From positions 1-5,807 of the forward strand of contig MHDQ01000202.1 of the NCBI GenBank assembly GCA_001803565.1: a stretch of DNA of 5,807 nt, written 5' to 3'. Numbering within the stretch: the stretch's first letter is position 1; each line of letters opens with the position of its first letter. The stretch comes from Nitrospinae bacterium RIFCSPLOWO2_12_FULL_45_22. GTDB taxonomy: Bacteria; 2-12-FULL-45-22. A program made the translations under genes and the position numbers. Below the pieces are notes generated by a model that had not been told where the DNA came from, did not search any database, and worked only from the letters and a program-made list of their open reading frames with translations. Below are positions 1 through 5,807 of this stretch, one piece after another.

Positions 1-222
1 CGAATAAAGACTAAAACCATTAAACAATGGGAGGTAGGCCGGGAGTTGAGGCGCAGGATAAAAAAGGTCTTTGATGCTAAAGGGATTGAGATGCCATTTC
101 CACACCGTACCATTTATTTCGGTTCTACCCCGCCTGTTTCCTTTGGGCCAGAGGCATCCTCCGAGTCTGCCGGCCAAGAGGATAAAAATCCTGAAGATGC
201 AGACACAAAGGGTGATAGCTAA
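1..222 (+). CDS. MscS-family mechanosensitive ion channel, C-terminal end (5' partial)
   Basis: Frame 1 is open from the first base to the TAA at 220-222 and encodes 73 residues, so the gene begins outside the window. The peptide opens with RIKTKTIKQWEVGRELRRRI, continues KKVFDAKGIEMPFPHRTIYFG, and ends in a polar acidic tail. The pattern of WEVGRELRRRIKK, an FDxxGIEMPFP stretch and RTIYF is the typical end of the cytoplasmic alpha/beta domain of MscS-type channels, inner-membrane proteins that open under osmotic down-shock. The membrane segments and pore helix would lie to the left. The last 25 or so residues (rich in S, E, D, P and K) are a disordered tail of the kind that varies in this family. 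The next gene is on the same strand 112 bp later; no convincing terminator is visible between them. The family call is fairly secure; the exact paralogue cannot be named. Confidence 0.85.
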   Translation, partial: RIKTKTIKQWEVGRELRRRIKKVFDAKGIEMPFPHRTIYFGSTPPVSFGPEASSESAGQEDKNPEDADTKGDS

Positions 223-277
223 AAATCGAATAAAAATAAGCTTGCCCTTCCGACGCCATAAAATGATAAAATGTAAC

Positions 278-318
278 CGGTAAAGATCACCGAAGAAAAA
301 ATTATTGTACCTTTACCG
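278..318. repeat. 8-bp inverted repeat upstream of the methyltransferase
   Basis: CGGTAAAG at 278-285 is mirrored perfectly by CTTTACCG at 311-318, with a 25-nt AT-rich spacer. The repeat ends 16 bp before the ATG at 335. It could be an operator or a leader stem-loop for the methyltransferase gene, whose translation start has no strong Shine-Dalgarno. It is not followed by a T tract, so it is not a simple terminator for the MscS gene. One 8-bp repeat in this much DNA can arise by chance. Confidence 0.3.
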
Positions 319-334
319 CGAATATAACCTAAGC

Positions 335-1399
335 ATGAAAATGGTGACCCAACCCAAAACAGATCTCTTGGCTCTCCTTGCGCAGGATTTTTCCTTTAAG
401 GGAGAAACTTCTCATCCTATGCATAATACTCACGCCTTTGCCGCTAAGTTTCCACCCCAATTGCCACGGGTGTTTATTGAGTCGTTGACTAAACCTGGAG
501 ATATTGTTCTGGATCCTATGTGCGGCTCAGGTACGACAGTCGTCGAGGCTAGTCATCTGGGTAGAATTGGGATTGGGATTGACATGGATATACTGGCTGT
601 AAAAGTATCGCAGGCAAAGACGTGTGCCCTGGGGCCTCCTTTGGTTCGGCATACCATCAATCAAGTGGTTGACCATGCGACCTTTAATTATCGCGCTCGC
701 ACTTTGGATATTAGGTCTTTTTTAAAAGAAAACTATGGACCCAAAGTGATATCTTTTTTCCAGTATTGGTTTCGAAAAGAAACAATTGAACAACTTGCCT
801 GTGTGGCAAAGGAAATTAAACGGCTTACCAATCCAGCCATCAGAAACTTCTGTGAGGTGGTATTTTCCTCTATCATTGTAACCAAAAGTGGCGGCATATC
901 GCTTGCCAGAGACCTAGCCCACTCCCGTCCCCATAAGGACGGATCAAAAAAGGTAAAAAACGCTATTGAGTCTTATGCAGAAAAGGCCGAGAAGATACTA
1001 GCCGCTATGGATAAAGCTAGAGGAGTTTCAGGCAGAGCGGTAATGCTACGTGGAGATGCAAGATCACTTCCGCTCGCAAAAAATAGTGTTGATTTGATTG
1101 TTACATCACCTCCTTATGCCAATGCCATTGACTATATGAGGGCCCATAAGTTCTCTATGTACTGGCTAGGGTTGGATTACGATTACTTGTCAAATCTGCG
1201 AAAGCGATATATTGGGGCTGAGGTGAAGCTGGATTTGCAGGAATTTCCCCATAGGCTAGCTTCAGAGGTCATAAGAAAAGTATCGGGAAAGGATATAAGA
1301 AAGGCAGGGATTCTTCTTAGATATTTTCAGGATATGGAAATGGCATCGAAGCCCGCATTAACCAGGAATATGTCATACTTTTATATAAGCCTTTTATAA
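335..1399 (+). pseudogene. SAM-dependent DNA methyltransferase, probably 3'-truncated
   Basis: From the ATG at 335 the frame encodes 354 residues; a TTG at 305 is also possible, and neither has a good ribosome binding site. Visible motifs are HAFAAKFPPQLP (about 33-44), LDPMCGSGTT (about 59-68, SAM-binding motif I) and LIVTSPPYA (about 254-262, catalytic motif IV of amino-methyltransferases). Between them is a helical region of about 190 residues. Motif I before TSPPY, together with the AKFPPQLP start, matches a group annotated as DNA modification methylases, acting on N6-adenine or N4-cytosine; the target cannot be told. In this group, a segment like LLRYFQDMEMA (ending at about residue 336, base 1342) is normally followed by further helix and a VLKPGG-type strand. 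Here the frame instead runs through an unrelated 18-residue tail to a stop. I infer loss of the C-terminal end by rearrangement. It may be inactive. No partner endonuclease is recognisable beside it. Confidence 0.7.
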
Positions 1400-1595
1400 A
1401 AACAACGCCCGGCTTCCTTTCTACTTTGTGGTAACCAACGAATATAACCCTGGCAGGCTTAACATAGCTAGACAAAACCAGTGTATCAACGGCCTTTTCC
1501 ATGTGAATAAGGATCTTCTCATAAAAGTAAACGGTGGCAATGGGAGGCTAGAAGGAGTCCAGGACCTTACCGAAGTGCTCCAGTATTTCAGGTAG
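1330..1595 (+). pseudogene. Unrecognised coding remnant in two shifted frames
   Basis: Just where the methyltransferase loses family resemblance, another frame opens (1330-1434, then a TAA). It reads GYGNGIEARINQEYVILLYK and then PFIKTTPGF. A third frame continues from 1422 with YFVVTNEYNPGRLNIARQNQ, then CINGLFHVNKDLLIKV, and stops at TAG 1593-1595. Joined near 1415-1421 by one frameshift, the two pieces would give a protein-like segment of about 85 residues with balanced composition. I do not recognise the family. The fragments lack a start and are short enough to be partly accidental, so this is a tentative call of gene debris. Confidence 0.3.
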
Positions 1596-1596
1596 A

Positions 1597-1773
1597 TTAT
1601 GTTTTGATGGAACTAGGAAGGCTTTCAAAAAGGTCTACATAAAGGAGATACGTTTTGATCCGGATATCCCGATGGGATTTTATAATCTCTCAACGAGAAC
1701 AAATCAGTGCTTGCGGCTATTGAATAATTTATCGTTGAAGTCATTCAACCCACATTCCGCTGTTTTCCCCTGA
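1597..1773 (+). pseudogene. Coding remnant with RNA polymerase alpha-CTD-like segment
   Basis: An open frame without a start codon runs from 1597 to the TGA at 1771-1773, 58 codons. It contains CFDGTRKAFKKVYIKEIRFD (from about 1600), then PDIPMGFYNLSTRTNQCLR (about 1660-1713). The spacing FDP-x-I...LSTRTxxCL resembles the start of the alpha-subunit C-terminal domain (FDPILL...L-T/S-V-R-S/T-x-N-C-L), a helix-hairpin-helix fold also found attached to other bacterial proteins. After CLR the resemblance ends, and the rest overlaps the tail of the hicB fragment on the other strand. This would be a broken piece of some protein with such a domain, not rpoA itself. The resemblance is by eye and weak. 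Confidence 0.25.
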
Positions 1774-1850
1774 CTGATACACCCTGGCAGGCTAGGACAT
1801 TCAGCAACCCAATAGCCATCCTCACCTGGATAAATTAAAACCTGTCTCAT
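1704..1850 (-). pseudogene. hicB: HicB-family antitoxin, truncated or fused after about 30 residues
   Basis: On the minus strand an ATG at 1850 sits 7 nt behind a perfect AAGGAGG (1864-1858). The 48-residue product begins MRQVLIYPGEDGYWVAECPS and continues LPGCISQGKT. This is the standard N-terminus of small HicB-like proteins: a strand, an EDGYWVAECPSLPGC turn and a SQGKT helix cap. Family members normally go on with an EEALxNIxEAI-type helix to about 70 residues. Here the sequence changes to an unrelated tail (AECGLNDFNDKLF and NSRKH) and stops. HicB proteins neutralise the HicA mRNA interferase, but no hicA-like gene is seen on either side. The start lies 28 nt from the GTTAGGC end of the attC-like element, as expected for the first gene of a cassette. 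I read it as an antitoxin gene cut by a deletion near base 1762; a functional stub is unlikely. Confidence 0.7.
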
Positions 1851-1857
1851 TGTCTTA

Positions 1858-1864
1858 CCTCCTT
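1858..1864 (-). promoter_or_regulatory. Strong Shine-Dalgarno for hicB fragment
   Basis: The plus-strand CCTCCTT reads AAGGAGG on the minus strand, 7 nt before the ATG at 1850. It is the best ribosome binding site in the window. It fixes the hicB start and shows that the 5' end of this gene is intact although its 3' end is not. Confidence 0.8.
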
Positions 1865-1876
1865 AAAGCCGCCGTT

Positions 1877-1953
1877 TCGCCTAACGTTCAAGGCTAAAAG
1901 AAGTCCCGCAATGTGGGATTTGGATGTCAATCTTTTAGCCTGTTGTTAGGCGA
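1877..1953 (-). other. attC-like integron recombination site (77 bp)
   Basis: The outer arms TCGCCTAAC (1877-1885) and GTTAGGCGA (1945-1953) are perfectly complementary, 9 bp, and contain the R boxes GCCTAAC (RYYYAAC) and GTTAGGC (GTTRRRY). The inner arms AGGCTAAAAGA (1891-1901) and TCTTTTAGCCT (1931-1941) pair over 11 bp. They are separated from the outer arms by unpaired GTTCA on one side and GTT on the other. The roughly 29-nt tip holds a small TCCC/GGGA hairpin. Two paired box sets, an unpaired central spacer, one-sided asymmetry and a variable tip are the architecture of attC (59-base element) hairpins recombined by integron integrases. The site lies 14 nt after the endonuclease stop and 26 nt before the hicB start codon, matching a cassette array read on the minus strand. 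The extra bases lie in the 1886-1890 arm; in classical sites they are in L'', which would suggest plus-strand polarity, so polarity is unresolved. Confidence 0.75.
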
Positions 1954-1967
1954 TGTGTTTTCTTGCA

Positions 1968-3089
1968 TCACTTGTCAGACTCTGCCGCCTTTCGCAAGAC
2001 AAGAAATGCTTCTTTCAGAGGTTGACTTACGGAACTGTCAGGCTCAGCCAAAACAAGACTTTGGTAAATGTCTAAGAAACTCGTGCGGTATCGGTGAAAG
2101 AAGTGAAGGAAATGTCTGACAAAGCCGATGCAGTCCAGAACAGCAATCTCGATGCCTGACTTGTTGTAGACACTCTTAGCGTACTCATTCACTTCGTACT
2201 CGATGACATCGGTTGTGATGAAGATATAGTTGTCAACTCGATACTTAAGGGTGGAAATCTTCTTAAGGGCATTCTCGATGTCAACGATTGTTACCCTTTT
2301 GTCCTTCATCTCATAGCAGGTGACTATCTGATCGTCGTTGATTAGGGTAACTTCGACATCTCCGATTGATCCGGTCTGGCTATCTGCGGCGGTGTGCGAT
2401 TGGAGTGGCAAAGCAGTCTCGCCAATGCGGTCTTTGACGGAAAGATAGGCAGCGGCAACCATTAAAACTGGAAGCCTACTTGAATTCTTGCTGCTGAGAT
2501 TTTGCTGAAGAAGAGTAACGGTTTGCTCGGAGGACAAGGGAAGCGTGTCTTCAGAGTGCTTGAGTTCTCGGAGAAGCTGCTTCATCCGAGTCTCGTTTTC
2601 GCTTTTAATGATGAGTAGGAAGCGAATGATTTCTTTAAGGGCATCGGAAGGAGCTACCTTGCCACGCTGTACGAGGTCGAGCAACTCAAGGACATTCGTA
2701 TAGACTTGCCGTGGCCTACCGACGAGAACCAAATCAGTCGTGAGCTTGCGGTCGATGTTTCTGAATGCAGGAGTGAGGAAAGCAGTTGTTGGGTTGGTGG
2801 GCAACTTGTATTTGATTACGAAAGGTTCAACGAACTGCTCATCGTAGGCACGCCCGGAGTAGGTGCCTTTGCCACCAATCTCCGTGTAGGGCTTTCTGAT
2901 GTCTACTTTGGAATCGTCGAGCTTTCCAAGAAGACAAGCCATCAGAAACCGAATTGGAGCCTTGTTTGTAAGACAACGACAAACAAATTCAATCTTAGCT
3001 CGAAGTTCAGCACCATCAATGAAGCACTTGTCTGGTTTGGGGCGGACATCTTGGTAATATTTTTCCAGTAGCGCTGCAGGATCAGTCAT
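1968..3089 (-). CDS. Type II restriction endonuclease, probably SacI-family
   Basis: The product is 373 residues from the ATG at 3089. This start overlaps the methyltransferase stop by 8 bp (ATGACTGA), which argues for translational coupling. An ATG at 3101 is possible; the open frame further upstream is only the methyltransferase read in another frame. The N-terminal half has a GRAYDEQFVEPFV stretch (about 79-91), NPTTAFLTPAFRN (about 99-111) and a conserved-looking VLELLDLVQRGK segment (about 133-144), which I associate with proteins annotated as SacI-family endonucleases. The likely nuclease core is GDVEVTL (D244/E246) followed by CYEMKDKRVT (E260, K262), a PD-(D/E)XK-type arrangement of acidic residue, strand, ExK. 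It should cleave unmethylated DNA at a short palindrome protected by the adjacent methyltransferase; the specificity cannot be read from the sequence. The frame appears intact. Its stop is 14 nt from the attC-like site. Endonuclease role is likely; the SacI assignment is from memory of the family pattern. Confidence 0.7.
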   Translation of the reverse strand: MTDPAALLEKYYQDVRPKPDKCFIDGAELRAKIEFVCRCLTNKAPIRFLMACLLGKLDDSKVDIRKPYTEIGGKGTYSGRAYDEQFVEPFVIKYKLPTNPTTAFLTPAFRNIDRKLTTDLVLVGRPRQVYTNVLELLDLVQRGKVAPSDALKEIIRFLLIIKSENETRMKQLLRELKHSEDTLPLSSEQTVTLLQQNLSSKNSSRLPVLMVAAAYLSVKDRIGETALPLQSHTAADSQTGSIGDVEVTLINDDQIVTCYEMKDKRVTIVDIENALKKISTLKYRVDNYIFITTDVIEYEVNEYAKSVYNKSGIEIAVLDCIGFVRHFLHFFHRYRTSFLDIYQSLVLAEPDSSVSQPLKEAFLVLRKAAESDK

Positions 3090-4002
3090 TGTGCGAAGCA
3101 TCCCTTTGGGAAAAGAGAGTGTAAGCTTTTTTGAAATTGTGAATATCGTAGTTAACCCAGAGAACTTCTTGACGCTTCTCTTTGGTGGAATGAATTGTTT
3201 TGAGCAAACCGAGATGTTTCTTCCATTTGGGTACAGGATACAATTCATCCATAAGGTCGCATTGGTAATTCGAGATAGCCACGAGACCTTTGACCGAGTT
3301 TAGAGCTTTAGCAAGTTCGCGATGTTCGTCGTCGGTCATTTCATAGCCATAAGACTTTGTGTCTCCTCTGGTACCGTGAACGTATGGTGGATCGCAGTAG
3401 AAAAGCGTTTCTTTGGAATCGTAAAGGCGGATTACATCAATAGCGGGACGGTTCTCTATTTGTACCCGGAGGAGTCTTTCTGCGATGAAAGTTAAGTCTT
3501 CAATTCCGCCAAGCCAGCGACTAATCACCCCGCTCATTCCATTTCTGCTCGTGTTCTTGCAGTTTGCCCATCGACCTATGGTTGCGGTCTGTGCCAAACC
3601 CGTTCTAACCTGACGAGCACGAACATAGAAACGCCTTGCCCGTTCAAAGCTTGATAGGTTGGGATCCAGTTGACAGGCTTTGGCAAATTCCTCTCGTGAA
3701 AATGGAGTCAGTCCAATGGCCTCAATTAGCTTTGCCTTTTCTTCACGTAGCACCTTGAAGAAATTGACAACCTCGCCGTCAAGATCGTTGTAGGTTTCGA
3801 CAGGGGATGAAGGACGGTTGACTAGGATAGCGGCTGAGCCCCCGAAAGGCTCACAATAATGGTAGCACTCGGGCAACAATGGAAGTAGCCAATCTAGATG
3901 CGAGAACTTTCCGCCGTACCAGCCGAAAGCGATAACCTTCCGAGAAGCCTTGAGTTGCGATATTGGTGCGGGAACTCTCCTCGCTCCTTCTCTCACTGCC
4001 AT
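3082..4002 (-). CDS. DNA adenine methyltransferase, D12 (Dam) class, of an R-M pair
   Basis: The protein has 306 residues. Motifs are GWYGGKFSHLDWLLPLLP (about 28-44, the SAM-binding start typical of the D12 class), CEPFGGSAAIL (50-60, motif I), ETYNDLDGEVVNFFKVLRE (69-87) and LFYCDPPYV (200-208, catalytic DPPY 204-207). A later VAISNY strand (241-246) and an EVLWVNY C-terminal strand (279-285) complete the fold. This is the alpha-class order (motif I, target recognition region, DPPY) of N6-adenine methyltransferases. It should add a methyl group to adenine in the recognition site and protect host DNA from the overlapping endonuclease. The ATG at 4002 is preceded by AAGGA about 8 nt upstream, supporting this start. 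About 97 bp separate the start from the GTTAGGC box at 4100-4106; a promoter is presumably there but no clear -35/-10 pair stands out. All key residues are present, so it looks functional. Confidence 0.88.
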   Translation of the reverse strand: MAVREGARRVPAPISQLKASRKVIAFGWYGGKFSHLDWLLPLLPECYHYCEPFGGSAAILVNRPSSPVETYNDLDGEVVNFFKVLREEKAKLIEAIGLTPFSREEFAKACQLDPNLSSFERARRFYVRARQVRTGLAQTATIGRWANCKNTSRNGMSGVISRWLGGIEDLTFIAERLLRVQIENRPAIDVIRLYDSKETLFYCDPPYVHGTRGDTKSYGYEMTDDEHRELAKALNSVKGLVAISNYQCDLMDELYPVPKWKKHLGLLKTIHSTKEKRQEVLWVNYDIHNFKKAYTLFSQRDASHND

Positions 4003-4099
4003 TCTGATGTCCTTATGTAATGGATAGCGGTGTTTGATAGCACTAATCTCCTAAATTAACGTGACTATTTCAAATTTGGAGAACTGCAAAGAACATATT
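4003..4099 (-). promoter_or_regulatory. Leader of the R-M operon (probable promoter region)
   Basis: This AT-rich gap lies between the recombination-site box and the methyltransferase start and must carry the R-M expression signals if the unit is self-contained. On the minus strand there is a TTGAAA (about 4073-4068) that could act as a -35 element, but no good TATAAT lies 16-18 nt on. AAGGA about 8 nt before the ATG serves as ribosome binding site. I see no palindromic C-box-like operator and no controller gene. Confidence 0.35.
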
Positions 4100-4106
4100 G
4101 CCTAAC
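4100..4106 (-). other. R'-like recombination box (GTTAGGC), attI-like or degenerate attC
   Basis: On the minus strand this reads GTTAGGC, identical to and in the same orientation as the R' box at 1885-1879. The flank also agrees: plus-strand GCCTAAC-TA-GTTCA here against GCCTAAC-GTTCA at the attC-like site, differing by a 2-nt insertion. No matching GTTRRRY partner box appears within the next 140 nt, so a complete attC hairpin is not seen. A simple site of this kind would suit an attI-type site or the right end of an inserted cassette. Together the two boxes bracket the R-M genes exactly. Confidence 0.5.
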
Positions 4107-4110
4107 TAGT

Positions 4111-4929
4111 TCACAGACGACTGTGTCGTCTTTTCTTAAAAATTGGAGGGATAGGCGACAATGTCGGATATCCCTCCTTTCTACCTCCTTCCTTCTGTAA
4201 AATCTGATCCAAGGGGTTTTTTATTCTCATCAAGTCTTTGTTGCTTACATGCGTGTAAATCTCTGTGGTTTTGGAACTTACGTGCCCTAATAATTCCTGT
4301 ATATACCGCAGGTCAATCCCATTCTCCAGTAGATGTGTAGCGAATGAACGTCTGAGACTGTGTATCGTCACTTTTTTCTTAACGCCTCCTCGATTACATG
4401 CCATTTCAAATATCCTTTGAGCAGTTCTTATTGAAATATGTCTTTCTTTACCCGGGCCGGGAAATAGCCAGAGGGCTGGTTTATACCTATCCAAATATTC
4501 CTTTAATATTTTTAATGCAGATTCTGAGAGCAGAGTATATCTATCCTTCCTGCCTTTTGCACCTCTTACATGAATCAGCATACGCTTGCTATCAATATCT
4601 TCTGGCTTCAATCTCACTACTTCGCTTACTCTAAGCCCTGCCGAATAAACAAACATTAATATCGCCTTATGTTTCACATTATCTACTAATGTTAAAATCT
4701 TTGCAACTTCTTCCTGGCTCAATACAATCGGTAATTTCTTGTCCTTTCGTGGCCTTTTCACTTCATATACGAACTTTTTTTTGAGCATCGTTCCGTAATA
4801 AAACTTCAGGGAGTTGATGGCCTGATTTAGGGTAGATGTTGCTGCTCCCTTCTCTTCAGAAAGAGTTATGGCTTTGATGTGTTGGATATAGCAAGTTCCT
4901 ATCTTTTCCGTACCCATTTGCTGGTACAC
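4111..4929 (-). CDS. XerC/XerD-like tyrosine recombinase (integrase), possibly N-terminally shortened
   Basis: A GTG at 4929 gives 272 residues. The catalytic domain is complete: SAGLRVSEV (R100), GAKGRKDR (K125), IHSLRRSFATHLL (H190, R193), ELLGHVSSK (H216) and TTEIYTHVS (Y225 nucleophile). The enzyme should cut and rejoin DNA through a phosphotyrosine link. Between the lysine and HxxR regions it is short and lacks the extra IntI-specific domain, so it is not a classical integron integrase. The core-binding part starts at about TSTLNQAINSLKFYYG (31-46); relatives usually have some 50 or more extra residues before this. Upstream the frame is closed by a TAA only 14 codons before the GTG, so the N-terminus is probably truncated or replaced. 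After NPLDQIL (about 238-244), where relatives usually end, there is an extra basic 28-residue tail encoded by hairpin-rich DNA. The stop is 4 nt from the GTTAGGC box. Base composition is more AT-rich than the flanking hydrolase gene, suggesting transfer. Confidence 0.85.
   Translation of the reverse strand: MYQQMGTEKIGTCYIQHIKAITLSEEKGAATSTLNQAINSLKFYYGTMLKKKFVYEVKRPRKDKKLPIVLSQEEVAKILTLVDNVKHKAILMFVYSAGLRVSEVVRLKPEDIDSKRMLIHVRGAKGRKDRYTLLSESALKILKEYLDRYKPALWLFPGPGKERHISIRTAQRIFEMACNRGGVKKKVTIHSLRRSFATHLLENGIDLRYIQELLGHVSSKTTEIYTHVSNKDLMRIKNPLDQILQKEGGRKEGYPTLSPIPPIFKKRRHSRL
4115..4131. repeat. Perfect 7-bp hairpin beside the GTTAGGC box
   Basis: AGACGAC (4115-4121) and GTCGTCT (4125-4131) are perfectly complementary around a 3-nt loop. 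The hairpin begins 8 nt from the GTTAGGC box and includes the last codons of the recombinase. There is no T tract next to it. It may form part of a recombination-site fold or be an arm-type binding repeat; this is inference. Confidence 0.5.
4145..4177 (-). terminator. Rho-independent-terminator-like hairpin inside the recombinase 3' end
   Basis: GGAGGGATA (4145-4153) pairs perfectly with TATCCCTCC (4169-4177). A 2x2 internal loop and an inner 4-bp stem (CGAC/GTCG, loop AAT) follow. On the minus strand the stem is followed by AATTTTTAAG. This is a plausible intrinsic terminator for the recombinase transcript, yet it lies inside the reading frame, in the extra C-terminal tail. It suggests the ancestral stop codon lay upstream of it and the tail was acquired by a later change. 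Confidence 0.5.
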
Positions 4930-4972
4930 CTTGGTGAAGCTTAGTGGCTCGTGGCTAAATAGTTAAAAGATA

Positions 4973-5599
4973 CTAAAGCTTTTTTAAGAAGCTGACTACC
5001 TCCTGGGCAAGGATGGTTTCTTTGCCCCAGAAGAAATGGTCAGTATCGGGTATGAGGCAGATGGATTTGGGCTCTTGCAAGCTTTCATAAAGAGTGGTTA
5101 TGCCTTGAGCCGGGCAGAAAGGGTCCTCTTTGCCAGCCAGAAGGAGTTTGGGTTTAGGACAGGTCTTTAGGTACGAGAAATCATAAAAGCCGATGGGTGG
5201 AGCAATGGCTACCCAGCCCTTTACCTCGGGGCTTTGAAGGGCTGCCCGTAGTCCTACTAATGCCCCAAAGGAGTAGCCAATCAGGAATAGCTTGGTGACC
5301 ATAGGCTGGAGATAGGCGATGGCCGCCAGCACATCGTCTCCTTCTTTCTCACCGCCGGCATGAACCCCCTGGCTACCTCCCACTCCCCTAAAATTGAACC
5401 GTAAGGTCATAAAATCTTTTTCAGGCAATGCCCTGGCTACTGCTACTACTACATTATTGTTCATGTCACCACCAAATTGCGGATGGGGGTGGCAGACTAT
5501 GGCTCCTCTGGCAGCCTCCTCTGAGGTACTATGGAGCATCCCTTCCAACAATAGATCACCAGCGTTAAAAACAACCCTTCTTGGTACCATTTTACTCAT
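4973..5599 (-). CDS. Alpha/beta hydrolase (COG2945-like)
   Basis: From the ATG at 5599 the product is 208 residues. Features in order are an ExxL-type strand, CHPHPQFGGDMNNNVV (about 36-51), the oxyanion-side FNFRGVGGSQG (about 68-78), the nucleophile elbow GYSFGA with Ser110, the acid loop GKEDPFCP with Asp159 and the DTDHFFWG histidine (His188). This is a complete Ser-Asp-His set in a small soluble hydrolase of the type annotated as predicted alpha/beta superfamily hydrolases, acting on an unknown ester or related bond, with no signal peptide. The start overlaps the stop of the upstream gene (ATGA), indicating coupling; a TTG at 5614 or an ATG at 5590 is possible. The gene is followed within about 45 bp by the recombinase on the same strand with no clear terminator between, so read-through into the recombinase is possible. 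Confidence 0.85.
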   Translation of the reverse strand: MSKMVPRRVVFNAGDLLLEGMLHSTSEEAARGAIVCHPHPQFGGDMNNNVVVAVARALPEKDFMTLRFNFRGVGGSQGVHAGGEKEGDDVLAAIAYLQPMVTKLFLIGYSFGALVGLRAALQSPEVKGWVAIAPPIGFYDFSYLKTCPKPKLLLAGKEDPFCPAQGITTLYESLQEPKSICLIPDTDHFFWGKETILAQEVVSFLKKL

Positions 5600-5807
5600 T
5601 GCCTTTTGAGCCAACTATTAAAGGGCTCTATTACCGGGGAATGGTAAGTGATCCGATCTAAATTAGCCGGGATAGGATAATGGCCATAGGTATGTACTGC
5701 CTTAATAACGGTATGGATATGCTCTGGTGGTGTATCAGCCGGTATATTAGCCAGGAAGATAAAGAATCTCCCATCCCTACCCAGGATATTTATATATTCT
5801 TTACTAC
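5596..5807 (-). CDS. Uncharacterised protein, C-terminal end (5' partial)
   Basis: The minus-strand frame is open from the right edge to the TGA at 5598-5596 and gives about 69 residues. They include INILGRDGRFFIFLANIPAD, then TPPEHIHTVIKAVHTYGHYP, then IPANLDRITYHSPVI, and end in a basic WLKRQ. The stop overlaps the hydrolase start as ATGA, so the two genes form an operon. I do not recognise it firmly. A strand with RFF, a helix, then a YPIPxxLDRI segment and a final helix is loosely reminiscent of the end of NurA-type repair nucleases, but this is a weak impression and should not be used as a name. Confidence 0.6.
   Translation of the reverse strand, partial: SKEYINILGRDGRFFIFLANIPADTPPEHIHTVIKAVHTYGHYPIPANLDRITYHSPVIEPFNSWLKRQ

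Follow-up and report, generated by a model that had tools for sequence, protein, structure and literature searches.

Is a pair of methyltransferase and endonuclease genes enclosed by two identical GTTAGGC boxes a mobile gene cassette, and if so, what kind of recombinase would have placed it there? The question is raised by contig MHDQ01000202.1 of Nitrospinae bacterium RIFCSPLOWO2_12_FULL_45_22 (GenBank assembly GCA_001803565.1), of which positions 1 to 5,807 (5,807 nucleotides [nt]) were analyzed as one window. An earlier note, made from the sequence alone, had described these genes as a restriction-modification (R-M) pair packaged as an integron-like cassette. Our analysis indicates, with a probability of roughly 85%, that positions 4106 to 1879 on the minus strand constitute a 2.2-kb two-gene cassette with its own hairpin site, lying at the attI of a platform that resembles an integron but has an integrase lacking the insertion specific to integron integrases (IntI). 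We refer to integrases of this type as patch-less. The R-M unit was read as a cassette because its ends match, because its site is built like others beside patch-less integrases, and because a paralogous locus on contig C55 of this genome has an attI that is interrupted at the same core, with another cassette beyond it.

Matching ends and a hairpin site bound the R-M genes

Examination of the plus strand of the window identified GCCTAAC only at 1879 and 4100, corresponding to two GTTAGGC boxes in the same orientation on the minus strand (1885-1879 and 4106-4100). Gene calls and Pfam matches revealed that the boxes flank precisely two intact genes on the minus strand. The first encodes a D12-class (Dam-like, putative N6-adenine) DNA methyltransferase (4002-3082; PF02086, 2.3e-22; PADLOC MTase_II, 1.3e-57), and the second, which overlaps it, encodes a SacI-like type II restriction endonuclease (3101-1968; PF09566 (SacI), 1.3e-05, 25.7 bits, cut-off 19.3). 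The left box forms one terminus of a palindrome of 73 nt (1879-1951); at its other terminus (1945-1951), the minus strand reads GCCTAAC. Between the endonuclease stop and this palindrome there are 16 nt rather than the 14 nt first reported. Read as an attC-like hairpin site that closes the cassette on its 3' side (1951-1879, minus strand), the palindrome comprises R'' GCCTAAC (1951-1945), a 3-nt spacer, an 11-bp stem, a loop, a 5-nt spacer and R' GTTAGGC (1885-1879). All seven box bases pair (7/7) and the 11-bp stem is unbroken, with no bulge in the L arm. Comparison of single-strand DNA folding with that of shuffled sequences gave a z of -6.4 on the plus strand, which is the bottom strand for the R-M genes. 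No T-run was present 3' of the hairpin.

The opening bases of an integron cassette are complementary to the R'' of its own attC, because both meet in the circle. The core GTTAGGC at 4106-4100 (minus strand), which represents both the attI/cassette core and the first 7 nt of the cassette, is a 7/7 complement of R'' at 1945-1951. Over a longer stretch, the cassette start GTTAGGCAATATGTTC matched the complement of the other end, GTTAGGCGATGTGTTT, at 13/16 nt, and the rule thus holds in the window for one full cassette. Extended matches of this kind were also identified at C55 (14/16), at a second host contig, C313 (13/16, with one core change), and at the loci L147 and L150 (15/16 each). A genome-wide search for the exact GCCTAAC...GTTAGGC pattern returned the window site as its sole match. 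The two flanks had also been said to share GTTCA next to GCCTAAC; on the left the motif directly adjoins the box, but on the right there is a gap of 3 nt between them (GCCTAACTAGTTCA).

The closest homologue of the R-M pair was found in a KSB1 metagenome-assembled genome (MAG; L015), with 90% and 86% protein identity. The earlier note had named relatives with other flanks and no break at the boxes as a refuting case; DNA similarity to this locus was instead confined within the boxes (window 1972-4082). No such hairpin site was detected at L015. Taken together, the matching termini, the hairpin site and an adjoining attI-like region bear out the proposal that the R-M pair is a putative cassette with integron-style ends.

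A truncated integrase and an attI-like region adjoin the cassette

The cassette is preceded by a 5'-truncated tyrosine recombinase gene (4929-4111, minus strand) that belongs to a patch-less sister clade of IntI (NF040815, 5.5e-58; TIGR02249 matched only in two pieces). A recombinase of this clade is the likely driver of the cassette and had gone unmentioned in the earlier note. Upstream of the crossover core on the minus strand lies an attI-like region (4115-4177) with two palindromes (4145-4177 and 4115-4131), the second just ahead of the recombinase stop. An intact paralogue of the recombinase is encoded on C55 (3379-4563; L095), with a length of 394 aa and 80-87% identity to the window protein. 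Compared with this paralogue, the window recombinase is missing everything before residue 163-165 or so, including most of the N-terminal core-binding domain. Its catalytic motifs R/K/HxxR/H/Y are retained, and the protein is probably inactive.

Similarity between the DNA of the window and C55 spans the integrase and the palindromic attI-like region, stops at window position 4103 inside GTTA, and is followed by unrelated sequence. The attI-like repeats and the breakpoint are conserved between the two loci, and the palindromes lie at the same distance from the core, with homology ending inside it. The same attI thus appears to hold different cassettes at the window and at C55, which would provide a natural substitute for an empty site. 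The R'' sequence at C55 (ACATAAC) was inferred from the attI core GTTATGT beforehand, and a site with that sequence was later found.

Beyond the palindrome, the earlier note had placed the start of a hicB gene. A second cassette start is indeed present there (1850-1704, minus strand), but it is a mere 48-codon remnant of a truncated HicB/UPF0150-like antitoxin with weak, below-cut-off matches to PF21748 and PF15919. The local platform has therefore decayed, with both its integrase and its next cassette truncated.

Additional integrase sequences were observed in this genome. The C55 integrase contains an extra N-terminal region (residues 25-59) with a weak HARP-like match (0.0015, below cut-off), to which several relatives align; no relative of this integrase was identified on viral contigs. 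Many short integrases of both the patch-less and the canonical type occur as relics in the host (G000 contigs C106, C127, C137, C287, C136, C317, C95, C7 and C115). These are mostly C-terminal fragments of ~45-100 residues, and in several of them conserved repeats still follow the gene directly. The host genome looks like a graveyard of integron platforms.

Patch-less integrases form a clade next to IntI

Protein alignment revealed that the IntI-specific insertion (patch III region/helix I2, ~41 residues) is absent from the window protein, the C55 integrase and 27 relatives. The spacing from KG.KDR to HxLRHSFA was 72-82 residues in these 29 patch-less proteins compared with 114 residues in IntI1 and the two canonical IntI proteins of the host (C243 and C304). 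In a tree built with three IntI and three Xer-type references (two of the latter from the host, C65 and C77), the patch-less proteins fell into a single clade (97/90) that neighbours IntI and is separate from Xer, with the root side not strongly tested; the window and C55 proteins grouped together at 100/100. No canonical IntI was present in 12 of the 13 genomes with patch-less integrases, including those with the best arrays, which makes the patch-less enzyme the natural candidate driver of these arrays.

XerA, XerC and XerD resemble the patch-less clade in possessing a catalytic domain without the insertion, and the best NCBIfam match of the window recombinase was NF040815 'XerA / integron integrase', below cut-off. 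The patch-less clade differs from them in its separate tree position and its links to arrays and attI-like repeats. Canonical integrons of the IntI1 and VchIntIA type share with the patch-less platform a tyrosine recombinase gene beside an attI or attI-like region, GTT-core cassettes whose start complements their own R'', and hairpin sites with AAC/GTT ends. The patch-less platform differs from these integrons in that its integrase has no I2/patch insertion, its sites have no extrahelical bases and an R'-side spacer that is 2-4 nt longer, and its integrase and cassettes run in the same direction, the attI-like region being located where the integrase gene ends.

The insertion has been called essential for integron function (Smyshlyaev et al. 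2021; PMC8138268), and the additional domain is among the defining characteristics of IntI given by Ghaly et al. (PMC9668308). The patch-less clade probably belongs to those members of the integron-like subgroup of simple tyrosine recombinases that lack the insertion (PMC8138268); in that paper, no cassette arrays were found described for such members. The IntegronFinder 2 study (PMC9024848) recorded attC clusters lacking integrases, with complete integrons only rare in Bacteroidetes. A search of the open literature, with most subscription journals and preprints outside its scope, returned no report of cassette arrays of patch-less integrases.

One relative was observed in a resistance context. 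On the Acinetobacter indicus plasmid NZ_CP041297 (L140, 4001-4900), the 'xerD' upstream of tet(X3) falls in the patch-less clade and is 52% identical over the catalytic part. The sequence between 'xerD' and tet(X3) contains the palindrome ATACGCCATTTGGCGTAT and GTTATGT, resembling the attI anatomy of the window; no complete site was found after tet(X3) at this locus. An ISCR2-type (ISVsa3) transposase beside this tet(X3) relative suggested IS91/ISCR-type transposition, which was dropped as a candidate because no transposase of this kind was seen close to the window or to C55.

Site type follows integrase type

When sites were sought from the 3' ends of patch-less integrases, a 7/7 match to the complement rule together with a stem of at least 9 bp was identified at 9/22 loci, compared with 11/600 random starts taken in unrelated loci (Fisher P = 1.9e-9). 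Cassette arrays in the same orientation as the integrase were found downstream of it, with four near-identical sites at L147, three at L145 and linked sites at L144 and L182; the arrays at these four loci, of 2-4 linked sites each, obey the complement rule. Six site-like repeats lie between same-strand open reading frames at L138 (a Rufibacter tibetensis plasmid), and C55 carries three sites. In seven genomes the contig runs for no more than ~300 bases beyond the patch-less integrase (G329:C27, G045:C163, G087:C80, G177:C52, G270:C9, G054:C41 and G312:C6), which would fit variable or repeated cassettes breaking the assembly.

Patch-less sites have an unbroken stem of ~8-20 bp and, in most, an R'-side spacer that is 2-4 nt longer; exceptions to the spacer rule are the symmetric 50-nt first site of L142 and two long repeats at L139. 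Site lengths range from 50 to 190 nt, and the loops between the arms are long and variable. The window site has the same build, with a bulge-free 11-bp stem and spacers of 3 nt and, on the R' side, 5 nt. Its R'' ends in AAC and its R' begins with GTT, as in canonical sites, and the L'' arm of its folded bottom strand carries none of the extrahelical bases of canonical sites.

Using a bulge-tolerant, rule-linked detector applied alike to both classes, we identified extra L''-arm bases in 25/25 linked canonical sites from six arrays (including C304 and C243) compared with 3/18 patch-less sites (P = 5e-9 by site, with sites in one array not being independent). By array majority, the bulge was present in 6/6 canonical and 0/5 patch-less arrays (P = 0.002); this count omitted G086, a genome that also has an IntI match. 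The dichotomy had also been obtained with a detector demanding unbroken arms, which by itself favours bulge-free sites. The exception was L160 of G086, where the linked sites include canonical ones.

The attC covariance search proposed earlier was performed with two models. The first (R1) was built from an alignment of 13 patch-less sites that excluded the window; its covariation was strong, with 9/10 stem pairs changed on both sides, 92% pairing and a score of 0.555 compared with 0.199 when shuffled. On the minus strand, which is the array strand, R1 gave the held-out window site 37.2 bits (E 2e-7); from eight canonical loci it returned nothing even at E 10. The second model (R2), of canonical sites, recovered held-out class 1 attC sites (aadA16 and other L176 cassettes) and the canonical arrays of the host. 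R2 matched no patch-less site in L095, L138, L139, L142, L144, L145, L147, L150, L182, L020 or L211. A search giving no attC score would have refuted the earlier note; the palindrome does score, but as a site of the patch-less type rather than a canonical attC.

These findings fit known biology. The extrahelical bases of attC are docked by helix I2, which is part of the insertion (PMC7790495; PMC3053210), and strand choice and efficiency are governed by these bases together with the central spacer (PMC2727003). Among the sequences compared here, enzymes that lack I2 are paired with sites that lack extrahelical bases.

R-M genes as cargo

The window genes most likely encode ordinary restriction-modification. 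Both are intact and adjacent, consistent with a type II R-M layout, and the two genes are adjacent in most of 80 homologous loci. Adjoining methyltransferase and endonuclease genes are common to the window pair and to type II systems with a SacI-like endonuclease; the window pair differs in being packaged with a recombination site and in the D12 class of its methyltransferase. R-M cassettes are already known from canonical superintegrons, and the cargo alone would not be new. No evidence was found for the earlier suggestion that the pair could serve as an addiction module stabilizing the array, and the local platform is in any case decayed.

When 68 homologous R-M loci were screened for R-M cassettes, only weak cases emerged (L033 and L076), which are not claimed. 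At three loci from other MAGs (L025, L026 and L053), genes of the same R-M family are directly preceded by a patch-less integrase or its remnant, and a GTT core separates the two; the cassette ends at these loci are absent, cut off or matched at just 6/7 positions.

The host genome contains a second two-gene R-M unit with the same layout as in the window (C313, L210, G000; 2470-5876). The order at this locus is the C-terminal remnant of a patch-less integrase (52% over 25 residues), attI-like repeats, the core GGTATAT (6/7), the R-M genes and a site. The genes encode a 325-aa partner without a Pfam match, an endonuclease by position only, and a 725-aa N6-methylase with a specificity domain, and the patch-less hairpin site lies 13 nt beyond the methylase stop. 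C313 also carries a canonical-type site at 8437-8527. Elsewhere in the genome (L211, G000:C211), the gene for a NACHT/STAND-like NTPase containing TPR repeats is followed after ~100 nt by a patch-less site (7553-7637); this may be a further cassette of the defence type.

Alternative explanations and proposed mechanism

Several points weigh against a cassette of a patch-less platform. The integrase next to the cassette is truncated, and 13/22 patch-less integrase loci have no linked site by the criterion used, some of them because the contig ends. R2 gives the window site a weak score (20.4 bits, E 1e-3), and related R-M pairs elsewhere (68 scanned) are mostly outside cassettes. Recombination is deduced from the sequence, and the canonical IntI proteins of the host (C243 and C304) might move the window site.

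This last point leads to the explanation that the R-M pair is a canonical integron cassette moved by C243 or C304, with the adjacent patch-less integrase a coincidence. IntI and divergent cassette arrays with classical attC sites occur in the same genome, GTTAGGC fits the canonical GTTRRRY, the canonical model finds its weak match, and C313 carries both types of site. We nevertheless consider this explanation improbable, as the 11-bp L arm of the window site is free of extrahelical bases, its spacer is unequal as in the patch-less type, and the site scores best with the patch-less model; the cassette also shares its orientation with the patch-less integrase at whose attI it is located, an arrangement repeated at the paralogous locus on C55. 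It is harder still to credit that the palindrome is a transcription terminator or a chance hairpin and the identical boxes a coincidence. Hairpins after genes are common and the window holds one site only, but the agreement of the cassette ends, the score of the held-out site, the missing T-run and the homologous arrangements at C55 and C313 all speak against this explanation.

A greater, if still minor, chance attaches to a double-strand, Xer-like recombinase for which the palindromes would be paired binding sites. The R-M pair would still be a cassette under this explanation, which differs from a folded-strand reaction in mechanism. Helix I2, which is held necessary for single-strand attC recombination (PMC7790495), is absent, and the attI regions hold palindromes of double-strand-like character. 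On the other side, though not decisively, stem sequences vary widely with pairing kept, loops are long and variable, and the spacer asymmetry is constant, a combination that points to recognition of structure, as in attC.

For the cassette of a patch-less platform, we propose that an enzyme of the C55 type would cut between G and TTAGGC and would insert cassettes at the attI beside the integrase. The site would act as a folded bottom strand, with strand polarity set by the unequal central spacer rather than by extrahelical bases. Excision between the two GTTAGGC cores, as first envisaged, would release a ~2.2-kb circle. The predicted circle junction on the minus strand joins ...CTTTTAGCCTTGAACG to TTAGGCAATATGTTC..., and the predicted junction of the excised platform joins ...GTCGTCTGTGAACTAG to TTAGGCGAAACGGCGGC... 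Movement at present would need the C55 enzyme, or a host Xer or IntI, in trans. With its integrase cut short and only a remnant left of the following cassette, the locus may no longer be mobile without help from C55 in trans.

Other features of the window

The window appears to be the entire contig (C202), and the array cannot be traced beyond it. The source MAG is 3.67 Mb and 85% complete, and its phylum is represented by 2 genomes in the comparison collection. An alpha/beta hydrolase gene is located at 5614-4973 on the minus strand. On the plus strand, a further DNA methyltransferase gene (305-1595; PF01555), apparently broken near 1399, was observed as a second R-M remnant of the contig. 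No tRNA was detected in the window, and an Rfam scan of it gave only a sub-threshold 'drum' match.

Implications for integron evolution

Integron integrases are thought to have gained cassette capture via helix I2, which has been called unique and necessary, with no ancestral sequence available (PMC7790495). A sister clade without I2, beside arrays whose hairpins lack the corresponding bases, represents the missing comparison for the origin of integrons. I2 may have been added after cassettes existed, I2 may have been lost, or hairpin recombination may have arisen twice.

In the window, an entire R-M system would travel as one portable unit, and the C313 example suggests that this was not a singular event. 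Patch-less platforms are probably missed by standard integron searches. They may include the tet(X3)-associated 'xerD' of Acinetobacter plasmids, which would bear on the gathering of resistance genes. Overall, we consider it likely that a second integron lineage, sister to IntI, shuffles cassettes without helix I2, using bulge-free hairpins whose polarity resides in an asymmetric spacer, with R-M systems among its cargo, and that tools relying on the IntI patch and canonical attC would miss it. With a natural enzyme of this kind and the sites that belong to it, ideas on how integrons arose could be put to a direct test.

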